NCBI RefSeq assembly: GCF_002288305.1
Contig: NZ_CP016779.1
Coordinates: 310,001 to 374,000 of the forward strand
DNA from: Candidatus Nanopelagicus abundans
GTDB lineage: Bacteria > Actinomycetota > Actinomycetes > Nanopelagicales > Nanopelagicaceae
Length of the DNA stretch: 64,000 bases
Reading direction: 5' to 3'
Program-made: the position numbers and the translations under genes
Part shown: piece by piece, positions 40,954 to 58,256 of the stretch
How positions within the stretch are numbered: the first letter of the stretch is position 1
Layout: each line of letters starts with the position of its first letter
The notes under the pieces: generated by a model
The model's input: only the letters and a program-made list of their open reading frames with translations
The model's database searches: none
What the model was told of the DNA's origin: nothing

Positions 40954-40977
40954 TCAGTAGGTATAACAAGTAAGTAA

Positions 40978-41014
40978 AGAATGAGGGGATTTAAGAAATT
41001 AATCCCCTCATTCT
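40978..41014. terminator. attenuator hairpin between potD and potB
   Basis: Perfect 14-bp stem (AGAATGAGGGGATT and AATCCCCTCATTCT), 9-base loop, then TTTT. It lies between binding protein and permease genes, so it probably reduces but does not abolish read-through. Confidence 0.75.
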
Positions 41015-41035
41015 TTTATAAATAGTTAGGTAGAG

Positions 41036-41917
41036 ATGAGCACAATTACAAGCAAAGCTGGCAGTAGGCCAATCTCTGCTTATTTATATAAACGTGCCAA
41101 ACTCAGATTATTTTCCCTTCTCGCCCTGCCAATGTTTTGGATTGTGGGCGTATATATCCTCTCCTTATTTTTATTATTAATAACCGCCTTTTGGTTTGTT
41201 GATCCCTTTACCTCAAAGGTAATTGTTGGCTTTACCTTAGAAAATTTTGTTTCAATCTTTACCGTTCCAGCTTATATTTCAACTTCAATTAGAACTTTAT
41301 TAATAGCACTAGCTGTTACAGCCTTATCAGTTTTATTTGCAATACCTCTTGGAATTTATATGGCAAAAATTGCGCGCCCTTGGGTGAGAAACGCCTTGGC
41401 TGTGGCAATTACCTTGCCGTTATGGGCTGGTTACTTAGTTAAAATTATTGCGATGCGCTTGGTATTTACTGAGCAAGGATTTTTTAATTGGGCACTTGCA
41501 CCATTTGGTTTATCTGGTCCAACTTTTTCGATACCAATTGTGATTTTAACTCTTACCTATCTTTGGTTTCCCTATATGGCGCTCCCTGTCTTTACTGCTA
41601 TTAGGCAAATTCCACCTAATCTTTTTGATGCATCAAGTGATATGGGTGCTAAGGGCTTCACCACGATCTATCGAGTAGTTCTACCGTTAATCGTGCCAGC
41701 AGTAATTGCCGGCTCAGTTTTCACATTTTCCCTAAGTTTAGGAGATTACATAGCAGCTAAATTTACTGGGGGCTCTACCCAGATGATTGGTTCAATAATT
41801 GCAGCTAATATCAATTTAAATCCACCTGTGGCAGCAGCCTTTTCAATGGTGCCAATCGCATTTGTAGTTATCTACCTCATGGTTGCTCGTCGCACCGGAT
41901 CATTAGAGCGGATGTAA
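41036..41917 (+). CDS. potB: PotB-like ABC transporter permease
   Basis: Inner-membrane permease of 293 residues with six predicted spans (first at about 30-55). The EAA loop that contacts the ATPase is NLFDASSDMGAKGFTTIYRVVLPLIVPA (about 199-226). Follows the attenuator hairpin; two bases separate it from potC. Confidence 0.9.
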   Translation: MSTITSKAGSRPISAYLYKRAKLRLFSLLALPMFWIVGVYILSLFLLLITAFWFVDPFTSKVIVGFTLENFVSIFTVPAYISTSIRTLLIALAVTALSVLFAIPLGIYMAKIARPWVRNALAVAITLPLWAGYLVKIIAMRLVFTEQGFFNWALAPFGLSGPTFSIPIVILTLTYLWFPYMALPVFTAIRQIPPNLFDASSDMGAKGFTTIYRVVLPLIVPAVIAGSVFTFSLSLGDYIAAKFTGGSTQMIGSIIAANINLNPPVAAAFSMVPIAFVVIYLMVARRTGSLERM

Positions 41918-41919
41918 TT

Positions 41920-42732
41920 ATGCTGCGACTATCTGCTTTAAGTAGAGGAATTTTAATTGCATTAGTTGGTTTTATTTTAATCTTTATGTATGTGCCACTT
42001 TTAGTACTGGTCTTAAACTCATTTAATCAATCAAACATCTCAAGTTGGCCAATTCAAGGCTTCTCTTTTAAGTGGTGGGAGTTTGCATCTACCTATGAAC
42101 CAATACGCACCGCACTATTAAACTCACTAGTAGTTGCAACCGGCTCAATGATTATTGCCTCTATCTTGGGCACATTAGTAGCCTTTGCTTTAAAGGGCTT
42201 TGATTTTTTTGGTAAGGGCACAGTTAACCTTTTAGTAGTACTACCAATCGCACTCCCTGGTGTTGTAACAGGTGTGGCATTTAGTAATACCTACAATACT
42301 TTTTTATCTCCAGCCGGTTTTAATATTGGCTACTTTGGCATGATTGTTGCTCATGCTACCTTTTGTATTGTGATGGTATTTAATAATGTATTTGCAAGAT
42401 TAAAGCGCATGAATCCCTCACTACAAGAGGCTTCAGCAGATTTAGGTGCTGGGCTATGGCAAACATTTAGATTAGTTACCTTTCCTCAATTTAGAACTGC
42501 ATTTGTTGCAGGTGCTTTACTTGCCTTTGCGCTCAGCTTTGATGAGGTAGTAGTAACAATCTTTACCGCACCTCCTGGTGTTGACACCTTGCCACTTTGG
42601 ATCTTAAAAGAGATGTCACGTCCTAATCAGGCGAGTGTGGTTAATGTTGTAGCAACAGTTGTCATCTTAATTTCACTAATCCCTGTTTACATCTCACAGC
42701 GATTAAGCCGGGCTCAAGATGAAGTTAAGTAA
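41920..42732 (+). CDS. potC: PotC-like ABC transporter permease
   Basis: Second permease, 270 residues, six spans. EAA loop SLQEASADLGAGLWQTFRLVTFPQF (about 166-190). The C-terminal stretch AFALSFDEVVVTIFTAPPGVDTLPLWI is typical of PotC. The last ~200 bases of this gene occur again, frameshifted, at 43946-44147. This copy is intact. Confidence 0.9.
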   Translation: MLRLSALSRGILIALVGFILIFMYVPLLVLVLNSFNQSNISSWPIQGFSFKWWEFASTYEPIRTALLNSLVVATGSMIIASILGTLVAFALKGFDFFGKGTVNLLVVLPIALPGVVTGVAFSNTYNTFLSPAGFNIGYFGMIVAHATFCIVMVFNNVFARLKRMNPSLQEASADLGAGLWQTFRLVTFPQFRTAFVAGALLAFALSFDEVVVTIFTAPPGVDTLPLWILKEMSRPNQASVVNVVATVVILISLIPVYISQRLSRAQDEVK

Positions 42733-42742
42733 GTAGCTGGGC

Positions 42743-43855
42743 TTATTCTTTTAAGTTAAGAATTAACAACTTTCCACTATCGGTTGTAGCAACTAATTGC
42801 CCAGAATTTAAAACTTCAAGATCTCTAATCCGCTCACCAATATCAAAGTTTTGTGTATCAGTAATTGTTAAATTATCAGTTAGTGAGATGAAAACTAGGA
42901 CCTGCTCCTTAAGTGATCCTGAAACTAATTGATTACTCCACGCTGCCCAACCACTCTTAGGTAGTTGCACCAACTCAGTTATTGCAATTGATGGCACCCA
43001 ATATTTAAGTGGCTCTTCATATCCAATATGCGTGCCAGATTTTGTCGGCTTAACATAATCACCTGAGCCATAAGGCTGTCCGTAGCTAACAAATGGCCAG
43101 CCGTAATCAGCTCCGGCTTTAATTAAATTAAGTTCATCCCCACCACGTGGGCCCTGCTCAGTGGCTAATAAATCTTTACCGTTATATAAAAGAATTCCTT
43201 GCGCATTTCTATGACCCTGAGAGATTTTAGTTATCGAATTACTACTTAATTTAAAGATTGATCCTAAATCTCCTCGCTTACTTCGATTTGATATTTGTGG
43301 ATAACCTAAATCACCAATAGTCACATAAGCAGATTTTTTATCAATCACTGCAAATCTACCGGAGGTGTGTTGCACAGCTGAGATTGGCACACATGGCTTT
43401 GTAACTAACCAATTCTTAACTCGCTTAATTTTTTGATTAACTCGATCATAATTTATATTTTCAACAACAATTTCAACACAATTTTTCTGTGAACCCAGTC
43501 GTGGGTAGGAAACAAGTAGATTTGCACTGCTCTGCGTTTCAGATAAGACTGCAATATCATTGATAGCAAATCTTGAGTCATCATTTCTTCTGTTCGCAGC
43601 AATTACTGCGCCTAACTTAGTTAGCTGTTTAGTTGCTAAATTATATAAAAATAACTCACCACCTGTCTTACCACCACCTAGAAGTAGATCATCATTTGCT
43701 AACACAGCAAGTGCGGGTCCGCGCATATTCCCACCTGAGGTGGTAGCTGTTTTAATCTCATCTGATCTAATTTGTAGATTAGGCAGGGGCGCACTATTTG
43801 CGGTGGCAGCAGATAAAATTGAGGTAAGTAGTGAGATTAAAAGCAGGTAGATCAT
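42743..43855 (-). CDS. secreted PQQ-type sugar dehydrogenase (GSDH family)
   Basis: Exported beta-propeller of 370 residues resembling soluble aldose (glucose/sorbosone) dehydrogenases such as YliI. Signal peptide 1-21. The active-site segment reads GHRNAQGILL (about 215-224), followed by ATEQGPRGGDELNLIKAGADYGWPFVSYG (about 233-261), the family signatures for the catalytic His and PQQ/Ca site. No PQQ synthesis gene is in the window, so cofactor may be scavenged or the protein may be non-enzymatic. A TAGACT box sits six bases before its ATG. It is bracketed by potC and a decayed copy of the potC end. Confidence 0.83.
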   Translation of the reverse strand: MIYLLLISLLTSILSAATANSAPLPNLQIRSDEIKTATTSGGNMRGPALAVLANDDLLLGGGKTGGELFLYNLATKQLTKLGAVIAANRRNDDSRFAINDIAVLSETQSSANLLVSYPRLGSQKNCVEIVVENINYDRVNQKIKRVKNWLVTKPCVPISAVQHTSGRFAVIDKKSAYVTIGDLGYPQISNRSKRGDLGSIFKLSSNSITKISQGHRNAQGILLYNGKDLLATEQGPRGGDELNLIKAGADYGWPFVSYGQPYGSGDYVKPTKSGTHIGYEEPLKYWVPSIAITELVQLPKSGWAAWSNQLVSGSLKEQVLVFISLTDNLTITDTQNFDIGERIRDLEVLNSGQLVATTDSGKLLILNLKE

Positions 43856-43861
43856 CTGCGT

Positions 43862-43867
43862 AGTCTA
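43862..43867 (-). promoter_or_regulatory. -10 box, leaderless promoter of sugar dehydrogenase
   Basis: TAGACT, six bases (ACGCAG), ATG at 43855; the same hexamer as before iscS. Confidence 0.6.
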
Positions 43868-43945
43868 GAACAGATGACCTACCTTATAAGTGTTAGTTAA
43901 ATTACTTTAAGCAACTACTAAGCAGTTTAAGTAGGTGAATTTTCC

Positions 43946-44147
43946 GCTCAGCTTTGATGAAGTAGTGGTAACAATCTTTACCGCACCTGCTGGTGTTGAT
44001 ATTTTCCACTTGGATCTTAAAAGAGATGCCACGTCCTAATCAGGCAAGTGTGGTTAATGTGGTGGCAACAGTTGTCATCTTAATTTTACTAATCCCTGTT
44101 TACATCTCACAGCGATAAGCCGGGCTCAAGATGAGGTTAAGTAGCTA
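43946..44147 (+). pseudogene. frameshifted duplicate of the potC 3' end
   Basis: About 200 bases match 42532-42735 (end of potC) at roughly nine bases in ten, same orientation. A two-base and a one-base deletion break the frame and there is no start, so it is not expressed as protein. Most substitutions outside the frameshift zone fall at silent third positions (GAG/GAA, GTA/GTG, GCG/GCA, GAA/GAG), as between two functional homologues. It fills most of the 300-base gap 43856-44155. Confidence 0.88.
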
Positions 44148-44155
44148 ACTAAAGA

Positions 44156-44743
44156 TTATTTAAGTGCCTCAAATACAACTGCAATTACATTTGCACCCGC
44201 ATCTTCAATACCTTTAGCACGTTCACCAATCCAACCGGCTCGGCCATGTTTTGGCATCATATTTGCAGTTGCAGTTGCACCAGATCTTGCGGCAATTGCG
44301 GCTTGAGATAAACCAGATTTTAAATCTTTAGCAGAATTTAAAGCTTCAATTGCAGGATGAAGTGCGTCAAGTAATGTTCGTTCGCCAAGTGCGGCCTTAC
44401 CTCTTGCTGAGATTCCATCAAAAGCTGCTTGAAAAGATTTTCGAGTATTAGTTAACGCATCATCATCGACAGAAACAGCAGCGGATGCTCTAATAAAACC
44501 GGTAGCAAATAAAGTACCAAATGTTGAGGATGCAAATTTAGAGATTTCCTTACCAACCAACATTAAATCAGATTTTAAATCTCCAGTCAGTAAGCCATTC
44601 GCTGCTCTTATTCCTTCTGCAATCTTTCTGGCAGTGATGCCAAGATCAGCATCTCCTGCAGCGGCATCTAGATCTTCAAATTTTTTTGAATTTAATTCAA
44701 GGGCTACCGCCACTTTTTCTAAGGCAGTTGAAAGTTCACTCAT
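44156..44743 (-). CDS. dhaL: dihydroxyacetone-kinase-type subunit DhaL
   Basis: ATP/ADP-binding helical subunit, 195 residues. AAGDADLGITARKI (about 27-40) replaces the usual GDGDTG with the metal-binding aspartates kept. STFGTLFATGFIRA and KAALGERTLLDALHPA are conserved nucleotide-site helices, and ATANMMPKHGRAGWIGERAKG is the typical C-terminal signature. The start overlaps the dhaK stop by 4 bases. No DhaM (PTS) partner is present, so ATP is the probable phosphate donor. Confidence 0.9.
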   Translation of the reverse strand: MSELSTALEKVAVALELNSKKFEDLDAAAGDADLGITARKIAEGIRAANGLLTGDLKSDLMLVGKEISKFASSTFGTLFATGFIRASAAVSVDDDALTNTRKSFQAAFDGISARGKAALGERTLLDALHPAIEALNSAKDLKSGLSQAAIAARSGATATANMMPKHGRAGWIGERAKGIEDAGANVIAVVFEALK

Positions 44744-45741
44744 GCCTGAGTAAAAAATGGTGTGTGGGCAGGTGCGTTGATATAACTGAGTAGCTCATCA
44801 TCTACACGAATTATTGAAATAGAAGCACCAGCCATCTCAAGTGATGTTGCAAACTCACCAACATGCACTCTTGCCACATTAACACCATACCCAGTTAATA
44901 CTTTCTTAGCATGTCGATACATAATATAAAGTTCTTCAGGTGGTGTAGCGCCAAGACTATTCACTAAGACACAAACTTTGTCACCAGACTTTAAATCTAA
45001 ATCATCTTTAATCGCTGAAACTAGTTGTTCAGTTATCTGATCAGCACTTTCTAACTTAGTTTTCTTTATTCCAGGCTCACCATGAATACCCATGCCAATT
45101 TCCATCTCACCAGGCTTAACCTCAAAAGTTGGGTGCCCAACAGTTGGCAGAGTTACTGGGCTTAGTGCAACTCCCATAGTTCTAGTTTGGGCAGCAGCCT
45201 TTCTTGTAACAGCTACGACCTCATCTAAAGATTTACCAGCTGCTGCAGCAGCGCCTGCAACTTTGTATAAAAAGAATATTCCAGCAATACCTCGTCGGCG
45301 AGACTCCTCACCTTTTGGAGCTGACGCAACATCATCTGCACCAAGTATTGTCTCAACTCTAATTCCTTCAGCTGCTGCCATCTCAGCTGCAAAGTCAAAG
45401 TTCATTACATCTCCGCCGTAGTTTCCGTAAATATAAAGAACACCGGCTCCTGAATTAACTTGCTTAGTTACTGCCAACATTTGCTCGGCGGTAGGACTTT
45501 GAAAAACATCACCAACCGCAACACCATCTAATAAACCTTTACCAACATAGCCAAGAAATAGTGGCAAGTGCCCTGATCCTCCACCAGTAGTAATGCCAAC
45601 TTTCTTTGCAACCGGTGCATCAGCTCGCACTAAAGCATGCGTATCACCCTCTACAGACTTTAGTTGGGTGGGGTAAGCCTGGAGAATTCCATCCAGCATC
45701 TCATTTACGAACTCTTTCGGAGTGTTAATGATTTTCTGCAT
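44740..45741 (-). CDS. dhaK: dihydroxyacetone-kinase-type subunit DhaK (possibly tetrulose kinase)
   Basis: Substrate-binding subunit of 333 residues. GGGSGHLPLFLGYVGKG (about 52-68) contains the active-site His, and GMGIHGEPGI (about 216-225) the His that binds the ketone covalently. Classical DhaK has G-S-G-H-E-P; here the residue after His is Leu and the loop is more hydrophobic, as in DhaK relatives linked to tetrulose (erythrulose) kinases. Substrate could be dihydroxyacetone from the nearby aldolase or a four-carbon ketose. RBS GGGAAAGG. Divergent from the binding-protein gene. Confidence 0.85.
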   Translation of the reverse strand: MQKIINTPKEFVNEMLDGILQAYPTQLKSVEGDTHALVRADAPVAKKVGITTGGGSGHLPLFLGYVGKGLLDGVAVGDVFQSPTAEQMLAVTKQVNSGAGVLYIYGNYGGDVMNFDFAAEMAAAEGIRVETILGADDVASAPKGEESRRRGIAGIFFLYKVAGAAAAAGKSLDEVVAVTRKAAAQTRTMGVALSPVTLPTVGHPTFEVKPGEMEIGMGIHGEPGIKKTKLESADQITEQLVSAIKDDLDLKSGDKVCVLVNSLGATPPEELYIMYRHAKKVLTGYGVNVARVHVGEFATSLEMAGASISIIRVDDELLSYINAPAHTPFFTQA

Positions 45742-45790
45742 ATATTTAGCCTTTCCCTAGGTCAAACAAGAGTTTATAACAAAATTGTCA

Positions 45791-45813
45791 CATTAAATTT
45801 ATGCAATTTAATG
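45791..45813. promoter_or_regulatory. 23-base perfect inverted repeat, candidate operator
   Basis: CATTAAATT and AATTTAATG separated by TATGC, centred in the 169-base gap between divergent dhaK and the transporter operon. Size and symmetry fit a dimeric repressor (LacI, GntR or DeoR type). No regulator gene was found in the window. Confidence 0.65.
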
Positions 45814-45910
45814 GACTATTGACCAATACCCTATCAAACAAATATATTCTCTTCACCTATGGAGGTCAATTTCTGATCCCCATTAAAGGAACGAAAAACC
45901 GAGGAGAACA

Positions 45911-46918
45911 ATGAAAAAATCAAAGCTGATTGCAATTGTTGCAGCGACTGCAGCACTTGCCCTCACAGTAAGTGGTTGCTCATCATCTGGCGATAGTGCA
46001 TCAGATAAGCGCTACGTAGTATCCGTTAAGTTGATCGGCGTTGGCTGGTTCGACAATATGGAAAAGGGAATTTTAGAGTGGTCTGGCGAAAATGAAATTG
46101 ATGCCAGCATGACTGGTGCAACAGATGCTTCACCTGAAAAACAATCAAAGATGGTTGAAGATTTAATTGCACAAAAAGTTACTGGCATTGGAATTGTTCC
46201 AAATGACGTTGCATCTATTGATGGTGTAATTCAAAAGGCTAAAGATGCTGGAATTTTTGTTGTTACTCACGAAGCAGGCGGAACTAAAAATGCTGATGCA
46301 AACATCGAAGCATTTGAGAACGCTGCATACGGTGCAGTAATAATGGATAACCTAGCTACCTGTATGGGATCTGCTGGTAAGTACGTAGCATTTGTTGGTA
46401 CTTTGACAAACGGAAGCCATAACGAGTGGGTTGCCGGCGCAAAGGCTCAACTAGATGCTAAGTATCCAAATATTAAGCGCGTAGAGAATCCAATTGAGTC
46501 TAAAGAAGATGCAGATGTTGCATACAATAAGACTAAGGAACTATTGAAGAAATACCCTGACCTAAAGGGCTTCCAAGGATCATCAGCAAATGATGTAGTT
46601 GGAATTGGCCGCGCAGTTGAAGAGCTTGGTCTAAATGACAAGGTCTGCGTAATGGGAACTTCAATTCCTTCTATGACAACTAAGTTGCTTGACACCGGAG
46701 CGATCGACAAGATCTTCTTCTGGGATTCAGCACTTGCAGGCAAAGCGATGCTAAATATGCTTGAAATTCTAGGCAAGGGCGAGAAGATCACTGCAGGTAT
46801 GGATCTTGGCGTACCAGGCTATGAAGCAATCACTGTTAGCGCTACAAATCCAAAGAGCTTCAATGGAGCTGCTTGGGTAATTGTCGATAAAGATAACGCA
46901 AGCCAATATAATATATAA
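45911..46918 (+). CDS. sugar-binding lipoprotein (RhaS/LsrB-like CUT2 class)
   Basis: Extracytoplasmic binding protein of 335 residues. Lipobox VSGC (about 20-23). Mature part: VVSVKLIGVGWFDNMEKGI, VEDLIAQKVTGIGIVPNDV, VVTHEAGGTKNADANIEAFEN, KGFQGSSANDVVGIGRAVEE. The family contains rhamnose, ribose and AI-2 (LsrB) binding proteins; the H-E-A-G segment in place of D-S-D suggests a ligand different from ribose. Good GAGGAG site. First gene of a six-gene rightward operon. A very strong hairpin follows. Confidence 0.87.
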   Translation: MKKSKLIAIVAATAALALTVSGCSSSGDSASDKRYVVSVKLIGVGWFDNMEKGILEWSGENEIDASMTGATDASPEKQSKMVEDLIAQKVTGIGIVPNDVASIDGVIQKAKDAGIFVVTHEAGGTKNADANIEAFENAAYGAVIMDNLATCMGSAGKYVAFVGTLTNGSHNEWVAGAKAQLDAKYPNIKRVENPIESKEDADVAYNKTKELLKKYPDLKGFQGSSANDVVGIGRAVEELGLNDKVCVMGTSIPSMTTKLLDTGAIDKIFFWDSALAGKAMLNMLEILGKGEKITAGMDLGVPGYEAITVSATNPKSFNGAAWVIVDKDNASQYNI

Positions 46919-46942
46919 AATATTGGACATTCCCATTGGGAA

Positions 46943-46975
46943 GAAAGTGGGGCACGGTTTCCGTGCCCCACTTTC
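46943..46975. terminator. strong hairpin after binding-protein gene
   Basis: Perfect 15-bp stem (GAAAGTGGGGCACGG and CCGTGCCCCACTTTC) with a 3-base loop and no U tract. It shares the AGTGGGGC...GCCCCACT core with the hairpin at 343-373. Confidence 0.75.
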
Positions 46976-47059
46976 GTTAATAAGGTATTAACAATTTGTT
47001 AAAGTAGTAATAATATTGAATTATATTTAACTAACTTATTAGAGGGGTTTATTTACTAA

Positions 47060-48556
47060 ATGGTTAGTACAGAAAGCCTTAACTACAGCGTTAAAAATAT
47101 TACAAAAAGTTTTGGTGGGGCTAAAGCGCTCTCAAATGTTTCGATGTCAGTTTCAAGCAGTGAAGTCCACTGCCTCGCTGGTGAAAACGGCTCAGGCAAA
47201 TCAACATTAATTAAGATTATGTCAGGTGTCCACGCCCCCGATTCTGGTTTAATCCGCTTAGATAGAAAAGAATTTAATCAACTTTCACCAAGGCAAGCAG
47301 TGCAAGAGGGAGTACAGGTAATATTTCAAGATTTTTCATTACTACCAAATCTGACTGCGGCTGAAAATATAGCCTTACCAACATTTATATATGAGAATTC
47401 AAAATTTATAAGTAAGCGTGAAACTAAGAAAATTGCTCAGAGCGCACTTGAACTAATTGGCGTAGATATTGATTTTAATCTTCCAGTTTCTGATATCTCA
47501 ATAGCCTCAAAGCAGTTAATTGCAATTGCCAGAGCTACTAATCTAGGCGTAAAAATGTTGTTTATGGATGAACCAACAACGGCTTTAACAAGAAAAGAAA
47601 TTACCCGTTTATTTGAGGTTATTAATCAAATAAAAGCACGTGGAGTAGCAACCGTTTTTGTAAGTCATAAGATTGATGAGATCCAAGAAATTTGCAATAC
47701 GATTACGGTTCTTCGAAATGGTGAAGTAGTAGCAGATGGACCTATGAAAGACTTTGGAGCAAGAGAAATTTCACAAGCAATGACAGGTCATGATGTTTTA
47801 ACAACTCGAATTGCGCCAGATCTTAAAATAAGTGAGCAAAAAGTGGTTGAGGTATCTCATCTGACTGCTAAGCCAACATTTTCTGATATCTCATTTTCAG
47901 TTGCGCCAGGAGAAATTTTAGGTATTACTGGTTTGCTTGGATCTGGTCGTACAGAGTTAGCTGAGGCAATATTTGGGAAGTATCTTGTTGATTCAGGGGA
48001 GATAGCAGTTAATGGAGTTAAGTTAAGCATAAATTCCGCTAAAGCGGCTCTAGATGCTGGAATTGGATACGTTCCTCCAGATCGTTTAACACAAGGGTTA
48101 TTTTTAGAGCAATCGATATTAAGAAACTTAGTTGCCGTTGGTATTGATAGATATAAGAGTAACTGGGGTTCATTACCTAAAAAAAATCTAACCGCAATTG
48201 GTAATAAGTGGGTTTCAGATCTTAAAATTAAAACTAAAAATCCATCAAATCCAGTGACTTCCTTATCTGGAGGAAATCAACAGCGAGTGGTGTTAGCAAA
48301 ATGGTTTGCCATGAATCCACATTTAATGATTCTAAATGGTCCAACAGTAGGTGTTGACGTCGGGTCAAAGCGGGAGATATTAGAAATTATTAGGGATAGA
48401 GCAAAAAATGGAATGTCATTCTTGGTAGTTTCAGATGATATTCCTGAACTTATCCAAATTTGCCATCGAGTACTGGTAATTAAGAATGGGAAAATATCTA
48501 AAGAATTTCTAGAATCAGAGCTTGATGAAGCTTCTTTATATAAGGAGTTGAATTGA
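47060..48556 (+). CDS. CUT2 sugar ABC transporter ATPase (RbsA/LsrA-like)
   Basis: Double ATPase of 498 residues. First domain: Walker A GENGSGKST (about 39-47), FQDFSLLPNL, FMDEPTTALT. Second domain (from about 270): degenerate Walker A GLLGSGRTE, GYVPPDR, signature LSGGNQQRV (about 398-406), and VGVDVGSKREI. This arrangement is that of RbsA, XylG and LsrA. RBS GAGGGG. One base separates it from the first permease. Confidence 0.93.
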   Translation: MVSTESLNYSVKNITKSFGGAKALSNVSMSVSSSEVHCLAGENGSGKSTLIKIMSGVHAPDSGLIRLDRKEFNQLSPRQAVQEGVQVIFQDFSLLPNLTAAENIALPTFIYENSKFISKRETKKIAQSALELIGVDIDFNLPVSDISIASKQLIAIARATNLGVKMLFMDEPTTALTRKEITRLFEVINQIKARGVATVFVSHKIDEIQEICNTITVLRNGEVVADGPMKDFGAREISQAMTGHDVLTTRIAPDLKISEQKVVEVSHLTAKPTFSDISFSVAPGEILGITGLLGSGRTELAEAIFGKYLVDSGEIAVNGVKLSINSAKAALDAGIGYVPPDRLTQGLFLEQSILRNLVAVGIDRYKSNWGSLPKKNLTAIGNKWVSDLKIKTKNPSNPVTSLSGGNQQRVVLAKWFAMNPHLMILNGPTVGVDVGSKREILEIIRDRAKNGMSFLVVSDDIPELIQICHRVLVIKNGKISKEFLESELDEASLYKELN

Positions 48557-48557
48557 T

Positions 48558-49577
48558 ATGAACTTTAGAAAATTATTACGGCGCAATGAAACTGTATTAA
48601 TATTTGCAATAATAGTTTTTTCACTGGTAATCGGCTCAAAAAGTCCAGAATTCTTTACGATAGCAAACCTTTTTGACATCTTACGATCTTCCTTTGTTCA
48701 ACTTATTTTTGCGCTAGGTGTATTAATTGTAATTATTAGTGGTGGTATAGATGTTTCATTTCCAATAGTTGGTATCTTCGCTGGCTATACCGCAGTTGTA
48801 ATAATGCGCAAGTTTGAATTAAACGAAGAGAGTGTATTGGTGCCAATTGCACTTGCAATTCTAATCGGCATTATTTTAGGCGGTTTAAATGCAATAGCAA
48901 TTGCTGGCTTTGAAATTCCAACCCTAATTGCCACTTTGGGAACTGCTGGTATTTTTCGCGGATTTATGCTTTCATTTATTGGTGCATCATTTATTAGTGA
49001 TATTCCACTTGGATTAGATAAATTTTCTACAGCTGACCTAATTAAATTTGAATCTGAAGCGGGGACATTAGTAAGACTACATGTCTTAGTAATTCCAGTA
49101 GCACTAATTACTCTGGCAGTATCACTGCTATTAAATAGGACAATTTTTGGTAGATCGGTGTATGCACTAGGTGGGGGAGTTGAATCAACTAGAAGACTTG
49201 GTATCTCAGTTAAGCGCACACAAGCAAAAATTTATATGTTAGTTGGAGGATTATCCGGATTAGCTGGAATTTTATATGTTTCTTTGCAACGAAAAGCTAA
49301 CCCATATGACTTGGCTGGTTCAGAACTCGATGTAATTGCTGCAGTAGTACTAGGTGGTGCCAGCATTATGGGTGGATACGGCACCGTGTTTGGAACAGTT
49401 CTTGGCGTACTATTTATTAATATGATAAAAAATAACTTAGTTTTACTCGGTGTTAGCAGTTCATGGCAGCGAGCTGCAGTAGGAGTTTTGTTAATAATTG
49501 GTATAACTATTCAAGCAATAGGTGAAAATCAAAAGCAAAAAAGACAGCGATCTGCTACTAACAAAGAGGCGGAGTAG
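48558..49577 (+). CDS. CUT2 sugar ABC transporter permease (first)
   Basis: Permease of 339 residues with eight to ten spans. VIISGGIDVSFPIVG (about 53-67) is the family signature; the VVLGGASIMGGYGTVFGTVLG loop (about 268-288) is the conserved region facing the ATPase. Paired with a second, different permease, as in LsrC/LsrD systems, whereas ribose-type systems use one permease twice. Confidence 0.9.
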   Translation: MNFRKLLRRNETVLIFAIIVFSLVIGSKSPEFFTIANLFDILRSSFVQLIFALGVLIVIISGGIDVSFPIVGIFAGYTAVVIMRKFELNEESVLVPIALAILIGIILGGLNAIAIAGFEIPTLIATLGTAGIFRGFMLSFIGASFISDIPLGLDKFSTADLIKFESEAGTLVRLHVLVIPVALITLAVSLLLNRTIFGRSVYALGGGVESTRRLGISVKRTQAKIYMLVGGLSGLAGILYVSLQRKANPYDLAGSELDVIAAVVLGGASIMGGYGTVFGTVLGVLFINMIKNNLVLLGVSSSWQRAAVGVLLIIGITIQAIGENQKQKRQRSATNKEAE

Positions 49578-49579
49578 TT

Positions 49580-50605
49580 ATGAACGAGCGCCTACAACGA
49601 TTCAGCACTGCGGGATTATTAGCTGATCGTAAAGTTACCCAATTAATGGGGTTTACTACTTTTACCCTAATTTTTTTCACAGTTTTTTCATTTAACATTT
49701 TCTTTACCCCAGAAAATTTCCGGTCAATGGCATATCAAGTGCCTGAAATTGCGATCTTATCAATTGCCGTTATGTTATCTATGCTAACTGGTGGTATTGA
49801 TCTTTCAATAGTAGGTATATCAAATGCAGCTGCACTAGTTTCGGCTTACATAATGACTCAGAAAATGACTGAAGGTGGAGATATTTCTACCATGTGGATC
49901 ATTGCAGCTTGCTTAGCAGGAATCTTAATCGGATTGATATGTGGAGCAATTAATTCAATACTAATTGCAATTCTAAATGTGACGCCAATTTTAGCTACCT
50001 TAGCAACTATGACATTATTTAATGGAATTGCCATAGGAATTACTAATGGAGTTTCTGTTTCAGATTTGCCAAAGCAATTTATGCGAGTTGGCAATGGTAC
50101 ATTCCTTGGTATACCCACACCATTTGTACTAATGGTTGTTATTGCAATTTTTGTTGGTTACTTAATTAACCGTACTTCACTAGGTTTAAAGGTGTTGCTA
50201 ATTGGAACTAATAGAAAGGCTGCCCAGTACAGCGTGATGGGAGACCGTAAAGTCATCGCATGGACTTATATAATTTCTGGACTACTCTCTTCATTAGCCG
50301 GTTTAATTATTGCTTCTCGTACCTCAGCAGCTAGTCCAGATTTTGGTAATTCCTATATTCTGCTAGCTATTGTTGTTGTAGTTTTGGGTGGAATTAACCC
50401 GATGGGTGGATTTGGCACTGTTACCGGAGTAGTTCTAGCTACGATCGTATTACAGATGGTCTCATCTGGCTTTAATGCTCTAAGATTTAGTCAGTTCTTC
50501 TATTTGTTAGCACAGGGCGGAGTTTTAGTGTTGGTTATGATCCTAAACACTGTGTTTGAAAAGCGTCGAATAAATAGATCTATCAATAAATCATTGGATT
50601 CTTAA
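49580..50605 (+). CDS. CUT2 sugar ABC transporter permease (second)
   Basis: Permease of 341 residues. MLTGGIDLSIVGISNAAAL (about 72-90) and VVLGGINPMGGFGTVTGVVLA (about 272-292) are the same conserved blocks as in its partner, but the rest is divergent, so this is an old heterodimer. GGAG site before ATG. Its stop overlaps the start of the M42 gene by one base. Confidence 0.9.
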   Translation: MNERLQRFSTAGLLADRKVTQLMGFTTFTLIFFTVFSFNIFFTPENFRSMAYQVPEIAILSIAVMLSMLTGGIDLSIVGISNAAALVSAYIMTQKMTEGGDISTMWIIAACLAGILIGLICGAINSILIAILNVTPILATLATMTLFNGIAIGITNGVSVSDLPKQFMRVGNGTFLGIPTPFVLMVVIAIFVGYLINRTSLGLKVLLIGTNRKAAQYSVMGDRKVIAWTYIISGLLSSLAGLIIASRTSAASPDFGNSYILLAIVVVVLGGINPMGGFGTVTGVVLATIVLQMVSSGFNALRFSQFFYLLAQGGVLVLVMILNTVFEKRRINRSINKSLDS

Positions 50606-51693
50606 TGTCATTAATTGAGCGTTTAGAAAAATACTGCCTAACTCCTGCAATGTCAGGGTTTGAAGATGAAATGATTAAGAAGCTTAAGGCTGACTTAACT
50701 GAATATGTTGATGAAATTAGAGTAGATGTACTCGGAAATGTTATTGCCACTATTAAGGGTAGTAAATCTGACTCATCTGACTTAATGGTTTTTGCTCATA
50801 CAGATTCTTTAGGAATGATTGTTAAAAAAGTTGAAGAAAATGGCTTTATTAGAATAGAAAGAGTGGGCGGAGTACCAGAGCGAATATTGGCCGCATCAAA
50901 TGTCGTACTACAAGCAGAAGGTGGCAAGATTGTTAATGGCTTAATTGGTTTTGTTTCTCACCATTTAACTCCACCAGAGGATAAGTACAAAGTTAAGCCA
51001 ATAAATGAATGTTACGTAGATATTGGTGCTAATAGTGCACAAGAGGTAGCAGATGCTGGGGTCCGTATCGGAACACCCGTAATTTATCGACCAAGCTTTG
51101 AAAAGTTACTTAATAATAGAGTTGCTGCCACATCTATTGATGATCGAGCAGGTTGCGCATTACTAGTCGAATTAGCTGCACACTTTAAAAAGAATCGTCC
51201 AAATATCACTTTACATTTAGTGGGAACAGTGCAGGAGGAGTTTAATCTTCGTGGAGCTATGGTTGCTGCCCAGCAAATTAAACCAACTGCTGCAATTAGC
51301 ATTGATTTAGTTGCAGCCTCAGATACCCCAGATATTAAAGATTCAAATTCAGTTGCAGTTGGTAAGGGCCCTATTGTTGGTACTTATACATTTCATGGCC
51401 GTGGCACTTTAAATGGTCTCATTCCAAATCCAAAATTATTAGCACTTGTTGATCAAGCAGCTCTTAGCTCTAAAGTTAATCTTCAACGCCATGCCACAAT
51501 GGGATTACTTACAGATGCCTCCTATGTTCAGTTAGTAGGAGATGGTGTTGCTTGTGTTGATCTTGCTTGGCCAACTAGATATACCCACTCTGGTGTGGAG
51601 AGTTGCTCACTTGATGATTTAAATGATCTTCGTAAGTTATTAATTGAAGTTATTAGTAAATTTCCCTCCGAAGAAAAGTTTTTGCGCGGTTAA
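50605..51693 (+). CDS. M42-family metallohydrolase (SgcX/FrvX-like)
   Basis: Dinuclear metal hydrolase of 362 residues related to M42 aminopeptidases. VFAHTDSLGMIV (about 72-83) gives the first His-x-Asp, SIDDRAGCALLVELAAH (about 177-193) the bridging Asp, VGTVQEEFNLRGA (about 209-221) the catalytic Glu pair, SIDLVAA a metal Asp and RYTHSGVE the last His. Classic enzymes cut peptides, yet SgcX and FrvX homologues sit inside sugar operons as here, suggesting hydrolysis of a sugar conjugate. Coupled to the permease gene upstream. Confidence 0.85.
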   Translation: MSLIERLEKYCLTPAMSGFEDEMIKKLKADLTEYVDEIRVDVLGNVIATIKGSKSDSSDLMVFAHTDSLGMIVKKVEENGFIRIERVGGVPERILAASNVVLQAEGGKIVNGLIGFVSHHLTPPEDKYKVKPINECYVDIGANSAQEVADAGVRIGTPVIYRPSFEKLLNNRVAATSIDDRAGCALLVELAAHFKKNRPNITLHLVGTVQEEFNLRGAMVAAQQIKPTAAISIDLVAASDTPDIKDSNSVAVGKGPIVGTYTFHGRGTLNGLIPNPKLLALVDQAALSSKVNLQRHATMGLLTDASYVQLVGDGVACVDLAWPTRYTHSGVESCSLDDLNDLRKLLIEVISKFPSEEKFLRG

Positions 51694-51725
51694 TAGCAAC
51701 TTTAGGTAATGGGAAGTGGTGAGTA

Positions 51726-53261
51726 ATGGGACAAGATCTTCTTTTAGGAGTTGATATTGGTACCTATGAATCAAAGGGAGTATTAACAACAACAAAGGGT
51801 GAGGTAGTTGCTCAAACTTCAATTGCACACAAACTTCTATTTCCCAGAGCCGGATGGGCCGAGCATGACCCAGAATTAACTTGGTGGGGAGATTTTTGTA
51901 ATATTTCAAAGAAATTACTCACAACCCAAGGGGTTTCTGCCAGTGATATTAAAGGCGTGGGTGTGAGCGCTATTGGTCCTGATGTCCTACCAATTGATGA
52001 GAATTTTAATCCATTGCGAATGGGAATTTTATATGGTGTTGATACTAGAGCCGTTAAGGAAATTGATGAACTAAATGCTCAATTTGGTGAGGATACAATT
52101 TTTAATGCAACGGCTAACTGTTTATCATCTCAATCAACAGGTCCAAAGATCTTATGGATAAAGAAAAATGAACCTGAGGTTTATAAGAAAGCTCGCTGGT
52201 TTGTTGATGCCACAACTTTTATTGTGGCTAGATTAACTAATCGGGTAGTAATTGATCACTTCTCAGCAGGCTGTATGGTCCCTCTGTATGACCCATGGAC
52301 AAGTAAGTGGAGTGATAAGTATTGCAAAGAGTATATAAATCTTGATCAATTGCCGGAGATTTTATGGAGTAATGAGTTAGCTGGCACTATAACTGAAAGT
52401 GCGTCTAAGCAAACTGGATTAGCAGTTGGCACACCAGTCTCAGTTGGCACTATTGATGCTGGCGCTGAAGCACTTAGCGTTAGTGTTACTAAGCCAGGTG
52501 AAATGATGATGATGTATGGCTCTACTATATTTATGATTCAAGTTACTGATAACAATCAAGCTAGAGAAAAGCGGTTATGGGCAGGTCCATATTTGTTTCC
52601 AAATACTTGGTGCTTATTAGCTGGAATGGCAACTAGTGGATCACTTACCAGGTGGTTTAAAGATAACTTTGCAAAGGATTTAATAAGTAAAGAAGAGGCT
52701 GGTGGAGATAATGCATACGCAGAGTTAGTAAATGAGGCAGGTGCAACTCCAGCAGGTGCTGAAGGAGTCATAGTTTTACCTTACTTTAGCGGTGAGCGAA
52801 CACCAGTAATGGATCCAAGGGCAAAGGGAATGATCTTTGGTTTAAGTCTTACTCATACTCGTGGGCATTTATTCCGGGCAGTTTTGGAAGGTATGGGACA
52901 TGGAATTAAGCAGCATGTTGATCTCTTCACTGCAATTGGGGCAAGGCCACACACAATTAAATCTGTTGGTGGTGGCACAAAAAATAAGGTTTGGTTACAG
53001 GCAGTAAGTGATATCTCAGGTGTTCCACAAGAGGTTGCACCTCTAACTTTTGGCGCCTCCTATGGTGATGCCTTACTTGCAGGTGTTGCTACTGGATTAG
53101 TTGCCTCCGCTGAAGAGATAAGAGTTTGGCAGGGCCCACCAACTGTAGTTAAACCAAATGATGAGTTGGCTAAAACTTATGCTCCATTAAGTGAGATTTA
53201 TGCTCAACTTTATGATGCAACTAAAAATCAGATGCACAAACTACATGAGCTTGATTACTAA
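51726..53261 (+). CDS. FGGY-family sugar kinase
   Basis: Carbohydrate kinase of 511 residues. GVDIGTYESKGVLTT (about 8-22) and GWAEHDPELTWWGDF are the N-terminal FGGY features. SVGTIDAGAEALS and MMMYGSTIFMIQ belong to the second half, and IKSVGGGTKNKVWLQAVSDISGVP (about 414-437) is the C-terminal signature. More similar by eye to xylulokinase/LsrK-like members than to glycerol kinase. It converges on the MDR gene (stop at 53261, next stop at 53262), so the two operons meet here. Confidence 0.87.
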   Translation: MGQDLLLGVDIGTYESKGVLTTTKGEVVAQTSIAHKLLFPRAGWAEHDPELTWWGDFCNISKKLLTTQGVSASDIKGVGVSAIGPDVLPIDENFNPLRMGILYGVDTRAVKEIDELNAQFGEDTIFNATANCLSSQSTGPKILWIKKNEPEVYKKARWFVDATTFIVARLTNRVVIDHFSAGCMVPLYDPWTSKWSDKYCKEYINLDQLPEILWSNELAGTITESASKQTGLAVGTPVSVGTIDAGAEALSVSVTKPGEMMMMYGSTIFMIQVTDNNQAREKRLWAGPYLFPNTWCLLAGMATSGSLTRWFKDNFAKDLISKEEAGGDNAYAELVNEAGATPAGAEGVIVLPYFSGERTPVMDPRAKGMIFGLSLTHTRGHLFRAVLEGMGHGIKQHVDLFTAIGARPHTIKSVGGGTKNKVWLQAVSDISGVPQEVAPLTFGASYGDALLAGVATGLVASAEEIRVWQGPPTVVKPNDELAKTYAPLSEIYAQLYDATKNQMHKLHELDY

Positions 53262-54290
53262 TTAAGGATTAAGCATTACCCGATAGCTAGGTGTTGAGGT
53301 TGCTTGCTCAAAAGCATCAGATGCTTGTTCTAATGGATATGAGTTATCGATTAAGGCAGATAGATCTATTTGATTATTTGCAATCATTTCAGTTGCTACT
53401 GCGTGATCACGCCGATCAGCACTAACAACGCCTACCGCCGATGTTTCTTTGTTATGCATAAGATTTGGGTCAATTGCAAATGGCGTAACTGGGTGAGCTG
53501 AGGCAAATAAGCAGATCTTGCCACGATTATTTAATACATCTAAGCCATCTTGATTAACTTCATCACTGCCATAAGCAGTAATTGCAAAATCAACGCCACC
53601 AAGAAAAGCCTCTTTAATTCGCTCTCTAATGCCAGCACCAGTTTTAAAAACTAAATCAGCTCCAATTGCCTTAGCTTTTTCAAGCCGCTCTTCATTGATA
53701 TCAACTACTGCAACTCTAAGTCCTGATTTCTTAAGCACTAATGTGTTCATTAATCCCATTGTGCCGGCACCAAATACAACTGCAGTGTCACCTAATCGTG
53801 CATTAATTAGTCGAGCAGCATGGATGGCGCAAGATAATGGCTCTGCAAGTGCTGCCTGATCCCAATTAGCGTTACCGACTGGAAAAACGCCATCACTGCG
53901 ATGCACTTTATATTGCGCAAATCCACCTGGACCATATTGCCCACCTTTAAGTGAGAAATTTAAAAAGTGATCCACGCATCCTTTATCTTCACCTCTAAGA
54001 CAGGCTCGGCAACTACCACATGAGGATGAACCCATCGTGACTCGATCTCCAACCTTTACATTAGTTACTAGATCACCAATTGCTGAGATCTCACCAGCAT
54101 TTTCATGCCCACCTAAAAAAGGATAATCAGCTTTAGTTTGGCCGGTATAGATACGTTGTTCCCAAGTGCACAGTCCAGCTGATTTAATCTTTAGTAAAAC
54201 ATCTCGTGGACCAATAATTGGCATAGGTACATCAATAACTTCAATTTTTTTAACACCAGTAATAACTGCAGCCTTCATTTTTTCAGCCAT
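53262..54290 (-). CDS. zinc-dependent MDR alcohol/polyol dehydrogenase
   Basis: Medium-chain dehydrogenase of 342 residues. GLCTWEQRIY and GGHENAGEI hold the catalytic zinc ligands Cys and His-Glu. The structural zinc set is CGSCRACLRGEDKGC (about 91-105). VVFGAGTMGLMNTLV (about 169-183) is the NAD loop. Threonine-dehydrogenase/sorbitol-dehydrogenase-like. Last gene of the leftward operon that starts near 57251; 4 bases after the aldolase. Confidence 0.87.
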   Translation of the reverse strand: MAEKMKAAVITGVKKIEVIDVPMPIIGPRDVLLKIKSAGLCTWEQRIYTGQTKADYPFLGGHENAGEISAIGDLVTNVKVGDRVTMGSSSCGSCRACLRGEDKGCVDHFLNFSLKGGQYGPGGFAQYKVHRSDGVFPVGNANWDQAALAEPLSCAIHAARLINARLGDTAVVFGAGTMGLMNTLVLKKSGLRVAVVDINEERLEKAKAIGADLVFKTGAGIRERIKEAFLGGVDFAITAYGSDEVNQDGLDVLNNRGKICLFASAHPVTPFAIDPNLMHNKETSAVGVVSADRRDHAVATEMIANNQIDLSALIDNSYPLEQASDAFEQATSTPSYRVMLNP

Positions 54291-54294
54291 CTAG

Positions 54295-55101
54295 TTATTT
54301 ATCCAAAATCTTCATGGCTTCATCAACAGTTGCATCTTGATGCACAATTGCACGTATTGATTTAATAAATTTAGCTGGGTTTGCATGCTGCACTACATTT
54401 CGGCCATAAACAACACCAGAGGCACCGCTATCAATAGCAATTCTTGTTCGTTCAATTAACTCACGGGGTGTTACTTGGCCACCACCTCGAACTAGTACTG
54501 GCACGCCAGAGGCAATTTCAACTACCTGATGAAAATCACTCATTGGGGTAGTGGCATCGACTTTAATAATATCGGCTCCAAGCTCAACTGCTTGGCGCAC
54601 TAGAGATGCAATCTTATTTACATCACCAACTGAGGCAGAACCTGCTCCAGCTTTTGCTGTCATTACTAACGGTTCAACCATTAATGGAATTGCTGCTTTC
54701 TTACACTTTGCTACAGCTAACTGAATATTTTGAATACATTGTTCTTGTAATCTAGAGTTTTCATCTAAATTAAGAAGATTTAGAACTACACAGGCAACAT
54801 TCTTATCATTTGCAAGATCTAGGCTTGCAATATTGGCGGTATCCCAAGCGTAATCAATATCCCGTGCCTCATATACATTTGTGACATCAAGGCGAAGGGC
54901 AATTGCTACATTAGTTTTTAACTTTAATTTGTTAAATATCTTTAATCCACCTGGATTTAATTGAATAACATCAGGCTTTCCAGCCAAAATTTGGGGTAGG
55001 GCAGTGGCTAAGTTTTCAATACCTTTTGCAAAAGATCGATCACCAAAAACACCTAGATCTAGAGCAATATTTATACATTTTTTTGATTTAGGGTCAAACA
55101 T
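54295..55101 (-). CDS. class I aldolase, LsrF/FbaB (DeoC-like) family
   Basis: TIM-barrel aldolase of 268 residues. ALDLGVFG near the start, LGADIIKVDATTP (about 185-197) with the Schiff-base Lys, VPVLVRGGGQVTP, and SGASGVVYGRNVVQHANP (about 228-245), which aligns with the GASGVDMGRNIFQSDHP end of LsrF. The ATG at 55101 has AAGAAG upstream; a TTG at 55131, inside the dehydrogenase gene, is the alternative. It probably cleaves or rearranges the phosphorylated product of the FGGY kinase, giving a triose phosphate. Confidence 0.85.
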   Translation of the reverse strand: MFDPKSKKCINIALDLGVFGDRSFAKGIENLATALPQILAGKPDVIQLNPGGLKIFNKLKLKTNVAIALRLDVTNVYEARDIDYAWDTANIASLDLANDKNVACVVLNLLNLDENSRLQEQCIQNIQLAVAKCKKAAIPLMVEPLVMTAKAGAGSASVGDVNKIASLVRQAVELGADIIKVDATTPMSDFHQVVEIASGVPVLVRGGGQVTPRELIERTRIAIDSGASGVVYGRNVVQHANPAKFIKSIRAIVHQDATVDEAMKILDK

Positions 55102-55114
55102 TTTACTTCTTGAA

Positions 55115-56002
55115 TTACTCAACGAGATCAACTCCTGCTCGCTTAGATATTACCTTGACAATTGCAGAGGCATTTAATTCACCAAGACCAGCGTCAACAC
55201 CCTCTTTGGCTAACTCTTCGGTAGTACTAGCAATAGTTACAGGAGAGTTAAAACGCTTAGCAAAAGCTTGAATTAATCGGGCATCCTTTAACATAAGTTT
55301 TAGCGGGAAGTTAACCTCATAATCACCCTTAATAACACCAGCACCAACACCAGCGTAGATAGGTGTTTTAAAATCCGCTACTGCAGCTACTTCAAGAACT
55401 TTGCGAAGATCTAGACCAGCATTTTTTGCAAGAGATAGCGCTTCACCAATTGAAACTATTTGAGATGCTACAAGTAGATTTCCTACTAATTTCATTTTGG
55501 CACCATTACCAGATTTACCCATGTAATGAGTGGTTTCACTTATTGGTTTAAGTACAGACAAACTCTTATTAAATACAGTTTCATCTCCACCAATTACTAT
55601 CCAAAGACCACCATCTCGGGCCTCACCTTTAGTACCAAAGACTGGCGCGTCAAGGAAGGCAACCCTATTTTTCTCATAGATCACTCGCTCTTCATCACTA
55701 GTTTGTGGATCAATAGTTGATAGATCAATTGCAATAGTTCCTGGCTTAACTTTGGCTGCTAAATTATGTCCACCGGTAATTACATCTTTAATGGCAGCAT
55801 CATCTGCTAGGCAGTACATGAAGAAATCAGCATCTTTAAGCAAGTCAGCTGGATCTGAAACGGTTTTAGCACCGATCTTCTCAATCTCTTTTAACTTAGC
55901 AGCGGTTCGATTCCATACAGTTACATCATGGCCAGCCTTTACTAAATTTCCCACCATGCCAGTGCCCATGATGCCAAGTCCAATAAAGCTAACCTTTGCC
56001 AT
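55115..56002 (-). CDS. 3-hydroxyisobutyrate-dehydrogenase-family oxidoreductase
   Basis: Beta-hydroxyacid dehydrogenase of 295 residues. GLGIMGTGMVGNLVKAGHDVTVWNRT (7-32) is the dinucleotide loop with Asn-Arg favouring NADP. FLDAPVFGTKGEA is the substrate loop, and GNGAKMKLVGNLLVA (about 166-180) holds the catalytic lysine. Relatives include tartronate-semialdehyde reductase, L-threonate dehydrogenase (LtnD) and HIBADH. GAGAGG before ATG. Its product may be a sugar-acid intermediate for the aldolase that follows. Confidence 0.85.
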   Translation of the reverse strand: MAKVSFIGLGIMGTGMVGNLVKAGHDVTVWNRTAAKLKEIEKIGAKTVSDPADLLKDADFFMYCLADDAAIKDVITGGHNLAAKVKPGTIAIDLSTIDPQTSDEERVIYEKNRVAFLDAPVFGTKGEARDGGLWIVIGGDETVFNKSLSVLKPISETTHYMGKSGNGAKMKLVGNLLVASQIVSIGEALSLAKNAGLDLRKVLEVAAVADFKTPIYAGVGAGVIKGDYEVNFPLKLMLKDARLIQAFAKRFNSPVTIASTTEELAKEGVDAGLGELNASAIVKVISKRAGVDLVE

Positions 56003-56021
56003 GCCAGTTACCTCTCAGAAG

Positions 56022-56825
56022 TTATCTAGATTTATTTGCTGCTTGTACTAATTCAATTACTCGCTTTGGATCAACTGGATTAAAGGTTTTGCCATCAATT
56101 TTCATAGCACTGCCTGAAATCACACCATCTGCCATCTCTAAAGTTTTAGCAACTGTTTGAGCATTCACTCCAGTATTTGCAAAAATAGGTATGTTTTTAG
56201 CAGCACTCTTTGCTTCTAATAGGTCAGCTTCACTAAATGCCACACCAGCTACTGGGCCAGAAATTAATATTGCATCAAATCCAAAGTACTCAGCCGCCTT
56301 AGCCCGTTGGGCAACAGTTCGGCCTTCAAGTGCTGAAGCAAACTCAGGAACAATATTGGTAAATAGTGCAATTTGATCTGCCTTTAATCTTGTGCGAGCT
56401 TGTGCAACTAAGGCTGGATCTGGACTTAGTACACCCATCTCACTGGCAAAGGAACCACACATAACTTCGCGCACAAATGAGGCGCCACAACCAGCAGCAG
56501 CTTCAATTGAAGCAATTGGATCCCATAACAGGTTTACGCCATAGGGAATTTTAATTTGATCATAAACTGCACCAACTAAAAATGTTGTCCAAGCCCCAAC
56601 TTCAGAACTTAATTTTGTGGTGTACGGAAGATCTGACTCATTACAAAATAAGAGTCCATCAATTCCACCATCTTGTAACGCTTTAATATCTGCCTTAACT
56701 GCAGTGATAATTGATTTTAAATCTGGGTTTGATTTTGCTTGCGGCTGTCCGGGTGAGGCAGGTAGGTGCACCATGCCAATAATGGGTTTTTTTGCTTTAA
56801 ATATCTTATCTAGTGGGATAGCCAT
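56022..56825 (-). CDS. BtpA/SgcQ-family protein
   Basis: TIM-barrel protein of 267 residues of the BtpA family, whose enzymatic role is unknown. IIGMVHLPASPGQP (about 15-28), GIDGLLFCNESDLPY, GVNLLWDPIASIEAA, FVREVMCG and FDAILISGPVAG are the family blocks. Members include SgcQ of the E. coli sgc operon. ATG at 56825 follows AAAGGT; a TTG one codon earlier is less likely. Its co-occurrence with the M42 protein at 50605 repeats the sgcQ-sgcX partnership. Confidence 0.85.
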   Translation of the reverse strand: MAIPLDKIFKAKKPIIGMVHLPASPGQPQAKSNPDLKSIITAVKADIKALQDGGIDGLLFCNESDLPYTTKLSSEVGAWTTFLVGAVYDQIKIPYGVNLLWDPIASIEAAAGCGASFVREVMCGSFASEMGVLSPDPALVAQARTRLKADQIALFTNIVPEFASALEGRTVAQRAKAAEYFGFDAILISGPVAGVAFSEADLLEAKSAAKNIPIFANTGVNAQTVAKTLEMADGVISGSAMKIDGKTFNPVDPKRVIELVQAANKSR

Positions 56826-56939
56826 CAATTACCTTTCAGTGAAAGAGAATTATAACATGAAAAATTAGTTCAAATTTACAACAGTTATGCTAAAACATTT
56901 TGGATTAGCAAGTGAAATCTAGTAATACTTCTACTAAAT

Positions 56940-57251
56940 TTAAATACTTGATTTTGCGTTTTCACCACCAAATAGCGCACTGCCTTGGTAAACAGTTAAT
57001 GGATTAGCTAAGAGATCATCTAGCATCCCTAAAAATGCTTTCACATGAGCTGTTTCAAGATGTGATTTAAATGCTGCTTCATTCTCATACACTTCAATAT
57101 TCATAAATACACCAGGACGATCAATTAACTCATGAACGGCGTAACTTTTCACACCAGACTCCTGCCAAGAAGCACTAGCACCATTATGTAGTTGTTTGCG
57201 TAACTCATCTGCTTTGCCTGCCTTGGCCTCAAATATCGCAGTTACTATCAT
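56940..57251 (-). CDS. ABM-fold protein (YgiN/LsrG-like)
   Basis: Small protein of 103 residues: MIVTAIFEAKAGKADELRKQL, SGVKSYAVHELIDRPGVFMNIEVYENEAAFKSHLE, a dimeric ferredoxin-like monooxygenase fold. It is the promoter-proximal gene of the leftward operon, 112 bases before BtpA. RBS AGGAG. In the lsr operon an ABM protein (LsrG) is the sugar-phosphate isomerase acting before LsrF; a similar role is possible here. Confidence 0.75.
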   Translation of the reverse strand: MIVTAIFEAKAGKADELRKQLHNGASASWQESGVKSYAVHELIDRPGVFMNIEVYENEAAFKSHLETAHVKAFLGMLDDLLANPLTVYQGSALFGGENAKSSI

Positions 57252-57326: not shown

Positions 57327-58256
57327 TTAACGCTTACTTGCAATATTTAGTCGATCAACCTGCTCTTTAGACAAATTAACAATTTGAATAATCTCATCTA
57401 GCTGCTCAACTGTTCTAGCACTTGCAATTGGTGTGCTAATGGCGTTATTTGACCTTAGCCATGCTAAGGCAATTGCAGCTACTGCAGCTTTATGTTCTTT
57501 GGCAATTTCATCTAAGACAGTTAGGGTTGAAAGGCCAACCTGATCTAAATATTCACTTGCTGAGGTTGATCTAACTGAGTTAACTGTGTTCACACCTCGA
57601 TATTTTCCAGTCAAAAATCCTTTAGCCAAACCATAAAAAGGTAGCGCTGAGAGATTATGTTTTATCACAACCTGTGCTTGCTCTGATTCAAATGGATCTC
57701 TCACCATCAGGTTGTAGTGATCTTGTAGCGCAATGTAGGAGGCTAAGTTATTTCGCTTAGATATCAAGAGCGCTTGTTCAAATCTATCTGCTTTATGTTG
57801 AGAGGCAGCAATGTATCTAATTTTTCCCTCTTTAATTAATTCAGTGTAAGTAACTAATGTATCTATCGTTGGAACTACCAGGTCATCTTCGTGTGAGTAG
57901 TAGATATCAATATAATCAGTTTGAAGTCTTGAAAGTGAATCATTTAGTGCCGCCTTAATGTTATCTGGTGATAATCCACGCCTAGTTGATAGTTTGGCAA
58001 CTTTTGTAGCTAAGACAATTTTGTCTCTATTACCTCGCGCCTTCATCCAGTTACCAATTATGGTCTCAGATTCACCGCCAGTATTACCTTCCTTCCACTG
58101 CGAATAATTATCTGCTGTATCAAGAAAATTACCACCATGGGTGACGTATGCATCTAGGACTTTAAAAGATTGCTCCTGATCAGCGCTCCAACCAAACACA
58201 TTTGTGCCCAAACACAATGGGTACACAGATAAGTTGGTCTGAGCAAGGGTAATCAT
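57327..58256 (-). CDS. aldo/keto reductase
   Basis: NADPH-dependent reductase of 309 residues, (alpha/beta)8 barrel. NFLDTADNYSQW (about 38-49) holds Asp and Tyr of the catalytic tetrad, IVLATKVAK the Lys, and DYIDIYYSHEDD the His. ISTPIASARTVEQL (about 273-286) is the cofactor phosphate loop. Of the YajO/general-stress AKR type. Could be a separate gene or feed the neighbouring catabolic operon. Confidence 0.85.
   Translation of the reverse strand: MITLAQTNLSVYPLCLGTNVFGWSADQEQSFKVLDAYVTHGGNFLDTADNYSQWKEGNTGGESETIIGNWMKARGNRDKIVLATKVAKLSTRRGLSPDNIKAALNDSLSRLQTDYIDIYYSHEDDLVVPTIDTLVTYTELIKEGKIRYIAASQHKADRFEQALLISKRNNLASYIALQDHYNLMVRDPFESEQAQVVIKHNLSALPFYGLAKGFLTGKYRGVNTVNSVRSTSASEYLDQVGLSTLTVLDEIAKEHKAAVAAIALAWLRSNNAISTPIASARTVEQLDEIIQIVNLSKEQVDRLNIASKR

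Follow-up and report, generated by a model that had tools for sequence, protein, structure and literature searches.

Homology-facilitated illegitimate recombination is an established process which, as outlined in PMC3240628, combines one homologous with one illegitimate end and leaves truncated gene ends beside foreign DNA. In the type VI effector gene arrays of Vibrio cholerae, cassettes are exchanged beside a conserved gene and remnants of displaced genes persist, as described in PMC5361080. In freshwater Actinobacteria, transcripts that carry heliorhodopsin (HeR) together with a glucose/sorbosone dehydrogenase (GSDH) have been reported, and a link to sugar metabolism has been inferred (Bulzu et al., 2021; PMC8612252).

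We analysed a 64,000-nucleotide stretch of the Candidatus Nanopelagicus abundans chromosome (the window) that resembles each of these systems in part. The locus would share with the process of PMC3240628, as outlined there, its paired homologous and illegitimate ends and its truncated gene ends beside foreign DNA, with the difference that we infer the event from one genome, including its homologous end and second parent. Like the V. cholerae arrays, as that source presents them, it suggests cassette exchange beside a conserved gene with remnants of what was displaced; unlike them, the cassettes are catabolic and do not hold effector and immunity genes. The two gene families of the co-transcribed HeR-GSDH unit (class 3 transcripts of PMC8612252) are both present, and their adjacency is kept in relatives; here, however, they lie 14.4 kb apart, and read-through from HeR to GSDH is unlikely. 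A non-exhaustive literature search found no description of this N. abundans locus.

The repeated potC 3' end

The last 206 bp of the ABC permease gene potC recur beyond the GSDH gene, at the left edge of a block of catabolic genes (Table 1). An alignment of 206 columns puts the two copies at 92.2% identity (E 5e-80); elsewhere in ~460 kb of the genome, the repeat has no match better than E 0.25. A first-pass annotation of the window had reported that the last ~200 bases of potC recur downstream with a dehydrogenase gene between the copies, and both observations stand. Its limits for the second copy (43946–44147) are right to within a few bases, with the start 5 bp and the end a few bp too late, and its two frame-breaking deletions are in fact three single-base deletions, at ~42587 and ~42596, near each other, and at 42703 (positions in the window, given on intact potC). 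Past the stop codon of the second copy (the potC tail), weak similarity extends to 44150. The GSDH stop codon lies 10 bp beyond that of potC, and the dhaL stop codon lies 12 bp past that of the tail, a similarly tight convergent spacing. The tail is 92% identical to potC of its own genome and 82–85% identical to potC of the sampled relatives; because it is nearer to the resident gene than to that of any sampled relative, the other parent of an exchange would be a close relative.

The copies differ by 13 substitutions; nine are third-position changes (p = 0.009 when compared with one third). Of the 13, three fall between or beside the two neighbouring deletions, where the alignment is ambiguous, and without these the count outside the frameshift zone is 6 of 10 (p = 0.077). 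Polarised with four relatives, two silent changes map to intact potC, two to the tail, and three are ambiguous, and all clear amino-acid changes and all deletions map to the tail. With 4–5 replacements against 2–5 silent changes, neutral decay is not rejected. The substitution pattern is compatible with copies that first diverged as working alleles before one decayed, and also with decay alone. The codon argument for divergence as working genes is therefore weak, since replacements and deletions confined to the tail are also expected from simple decay. At fourfold sites, 4 of 29 usable positions differ between the copies, about half the distance to the sister species G005 with a wide error, which again indicates that the other parent, if any, was a close relative.

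Table 1. Features of the locus (window coordinates)
Feature	Position	Strand	Basis or comparison
potC, intact ABC permease gene	41920..42732	+	ORF; best match PRK09500 PotC
potC 3' 206 bp, intact copy of the repeat	42526-42731	+	
GSDH-family (glucose/sorbosone dehydrogenase) protein, apparent signal peptide	42743-43855	-	PF07995
Hairpin holding the GSDH start codon, conserved in HeR-GSDH relatives	43847-43885	-	
Relic (~16 bp) of the HeR 3' end, at junction with the potC tail	43926-43942	-	GSDH-HeR junctions of L050, L049 and L057 compared
Repeated potC 3' end (second copy), broken by three 1-bp deletions; left edge of the block	43941-44143	+	
dhaL, dihydroxyacetone-kinase L subunit homologue; first gene of the block	44156..44743	-	
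dhaK homologue	44740..45741	-	
Sugar-type ABC transporter (binding protein, ATPase, two permeases), M42 peptidase, FGGY kinase	45911..53261	+	Same order in L110, L113
Zn-dependent alcohol dehydrogenase, DeoC/LacD aldolase, NAD-binding_2/11 dehydrogenase, BtpA family, 103-aa protein	53262..57251	-	Same order in L267-L270
Aldo/keto reductase (AKR), last gene before HeR	57327..58256	-	
Heliorhodopsin (HeR), usual upstream neighbour of GSDH in relatives	58283-59050	-	PF18761, NF038020

GSDH and heliorhodopsin in the genus

The dehydrogenase reading frame matched PF07995 with an E value of 1.9e-42 (146 bits, cut-off 25), and scored 62 bits against the PQQ subfamily TIGR03606, far under the cut-off of 434.55. 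Its earlier description as a PQQ-type dehydrogenase is hence right at the level of the family and not for the named subfamily. Judged from these profiles, the product is a GSDH-family protein, with PQQ binding and sugar oxidation predicted. The assignment of HeR, a light-sensor gene, rests on PF18761 (E 1.9e-95) and NF038020 (338 bits, cut-off 100).

In our genus sample, which has one genome per species, GSDH lies directly 3' of HeR in five species (G005, G006, G007, G008 and G017), with 61–74 bp between the HeR stop and the GSDH start in G005, G007, G008 and G017 and the same junction in a partial G006 contig. GSDH adjoins HeR in convergent orientation in G001, G003 and G019. HeR has no adjacent GSDH in G004, G013, G014 and G010, and other core genes adjoin it in the first three of these. 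In G012, a 249-aa gene lies downstream of the pot operon (for a polyamine-type transporter), with GSDH next. The sister species is G005, at 90% nucleotide identity over core DNA against 71–85% for the other relatives; its HeR-GSDH junction is intact, its contig begins inside GSDH, and no close pot operon was seen in its genome, which is 68% complete.

Fourfold-site divergence from G005 was 0.23 for GSDH and 0.27 for HeR, and the background median was 0.28 (5–95% range 0.18–0.46) for 82 genes from the stretches of the genome that were compared. Neither value suggests that the gene was acquired recently from another species. Because both sit at background divergence, no mosaic boundary marks the homologous end of an exchange. 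HeR had appeared more diverged from G005 than the background when taken together with the next gene (86.8%); gene by gene it is 90.3% identical, which equals the background, and an argument for a foreign right flank built on that divergence was dropped. Several HeR matches in G222, G204, G010 and G091 contain one in-frame TAA within the matched stretch; these may be pseudogenes, or the TAA may simply be a stop codon close to where the match ends.

The GSDH start codon lies within the 3' arm of a 15-bp hairpin that is followed by CUUUU. This hairpin is kept between HeR and GSDH in all five species with the tandem arrangement, with folding z-scores of -3.6 to -6.9. In G007 a G-C pair is replaced by A-T through a double change, and G017 and G008 have one-nucleotide differences that match between the two arms. 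The hairpin could be a terminator or attenuator, sequester the start codon, or be an operator. In G013, whose genome lacks GSDH, another strong hairpin 3' of HeR (L118, 11165-11285) surrounds the start of another gene, one homologous to window positions 31832-32278.

The catabolic block between GSDH and heliorhodopsin

The best dhaL match in the other 24 genus genomes is 30% identical, and relatives of dhaK at 86–89% amino-acid identity occur in ten genomes of other genera. Gene order from dhaL to the 103-aa gene is kept in G157, G162, G219 and G106, where dhaL marks the outer edge and unrelated DNA lies beyond, among those relatives' loci that were long enough to be read past dhaL. The 103-aa gene is the right end of the shared module, and the aldo/keto reductase is missing from the corresponding place in other genera. 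The core of the block was found at unrelated sites in other genera, and its GC content and third-position GC content carry no foreign signature. Both the pot operon and the dhaKL module belong to the accessory genome, and the dhaLK/ABC/FGGY/aldolase/BtpA module (44156-57251; L110, L113, L116, L111, L267-L270) appears to be a mobile catabolic cassette of this family. In the four genomes that keep the gene order, an extra gene of 255–260 aa, absent here, lies between the BtpA and 103-aa genes; by eye, its product in G157 resembles a DeoR-type regulator.

The first-pass annotation had predicted sister genomes in which potC is followed directly by dhaL; no such pair was found, either in the 25 genus genomes or among the 36 of 80 potC loci that were examined. 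No other genome examined has the block adjoining HeR, and scanning viral contigs for potC, dhaL and GSDH gave no hits. Downstream of potC and around HeR, almost every relative has a different set of genes. The locus has further accessory segments to its left and right (33530-42732 and 59518-64000), and the core order of relatives, 32996 - (GSDH) - HeR - g59097, is broken here on both sides; synteny with G005 resumes at genome position 375515.

Origin of the arrangement

In relatives, the DNA upstream of GSDH leads directly into the 3' end of HeR. Here, the same upstream DNA leads into a degraded HeR tip and from there, without a gap, into the potC tail, and intact HeR lies beyond the far end of the block. 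The joint between the HeR relic and the middle of potC, at ~43940, has microhomology of at most 2–3 bp and no long homology. We do not claim a 7-bp microhomology (GCAGGTG) near the joint, which would need an extra 8-nt deletion. The HeR tips on the two flanks amount to no more than a short, imperfect repeat. No recombinase gene, tRNA site or clean attachment repeats were found at the locus, where the scanned block genes are metabolic or transport genes, so the block does not qualify as an integrase- or transposase-borne island; the only tRNAs in the window are at 8048 and 21651.

We consider it reasonably probable that recombination with a close relative inserted the block into an inherited HeR-GSDH pair through one homologous and one illegitimate joint. 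The ancestral chromosome would have had HeR next to GSDH, with the pot operon on the GSDH side, and the second parent would have been a closely related strain carrying the dhaLK/sugar-ABC/aldolase block immediately after potC, and HeR after the block. At one end, a crossover would have occurred in homologous DNA, most simply in HeR or beyond it; at the other, the resident HeR 3' tip would have been joined illegitimately to the middle of the incoming potC. The product would read potC - GSDH - HeR relic - potC tail - dhaL...AKR - HeR, with the useless tail decaying since. We infer the second parent, the mixed mechanism and the direction of transfer alike. The last depends on the homologous end: a crossover in HeR or to its right would make the block the incoming DNA, and one in potC would make it GSDH. 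An incoming block is favoured because the HeR-GSDH state is shared with the sister species and is here at native divergence. GSDH is probably not the newcomer, given that it is the usual neighbour of HeR in the genus, shows background divergence from the sister species, and has a relic of the HeR 3' end upstream. Recombination with a related strain, as proposed in the first-pass annotation, is thus the best general explanation, and its identification of the dehydrogenase as the acquired gene is, for the same reasons, not favoured.

The reverse transfer, which is close to that earlier view, would start from a resident potC - dhaL block - HeR without GSDH and bring in a short fragment with the 3' part of potC, GSDH and the HeR tip; this fragment would have crossed over homologously in potC and been joined illegitimately at the HeR tip. 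It yields the identical gene order from a fragment of ~1.4 kb or more, as against at least 14 kb, and a prior loss of GSDH is plausible because four genus members have HeR without adjacent GSDH. However, GSDH would have to be lost and then regained from a donor with native divergence from G005, and the HeR-GSDH pair is the state shared with the sister species; we regard this direction as possible and rather unlikely. That the potC 3' end was instead duplicated beside dhaL within this genome and then decayed would agree with the confinement of clear amino-acid changes and deletions to the tail, for which neutral decay is not rejected. A duplication leaves unexplained the HeR relic, the end of the copy just past its stop codon in tight convergent spacing with dhaL, and the position of the block between HeR and GSDH, for which an extra event would be required. 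We judge such an origin quite improbable. Two arrangements do seem joined here, as in an assembly chimera of two strains. Against such an artefact, which we consider highly improbable, the assembly consists of one contig of 1,161,863 bases (99.9% complete; the window is 310001-374000), any repeat at the 43940 joint is too short to have caused a misassembly, and decay is seen in the relic as well as in the tail.

Insertion of the block by recombination with a relative is a kind of event already known, and the locus is a well-preserved, fairly ordinary scar of exchange between related freshwater bacteria. In this streamlined actinobacterium of fresh water, with a genome of 1.16 Mb, the trace of cassette exchange is still legible and no mobile-element genes were recognised there; the locus also identifies the surroundings of HeR as a region where genes turn over often. 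A more speculative proposal, which we think unlikely, is that HeR and GSDH form a light-linked sugar-oxidation unit with a conserved start-codon hairpin and that the insertion rewired GSDH from HeR to the dhaKL operon; if so, this strain would offer a naturally occurring test of the importance of the heliorhodopsin link. The HeR-GSDH linkage on which the published functional inference is based can be broken with both genes intact, so comparisons between strains could test that inference.
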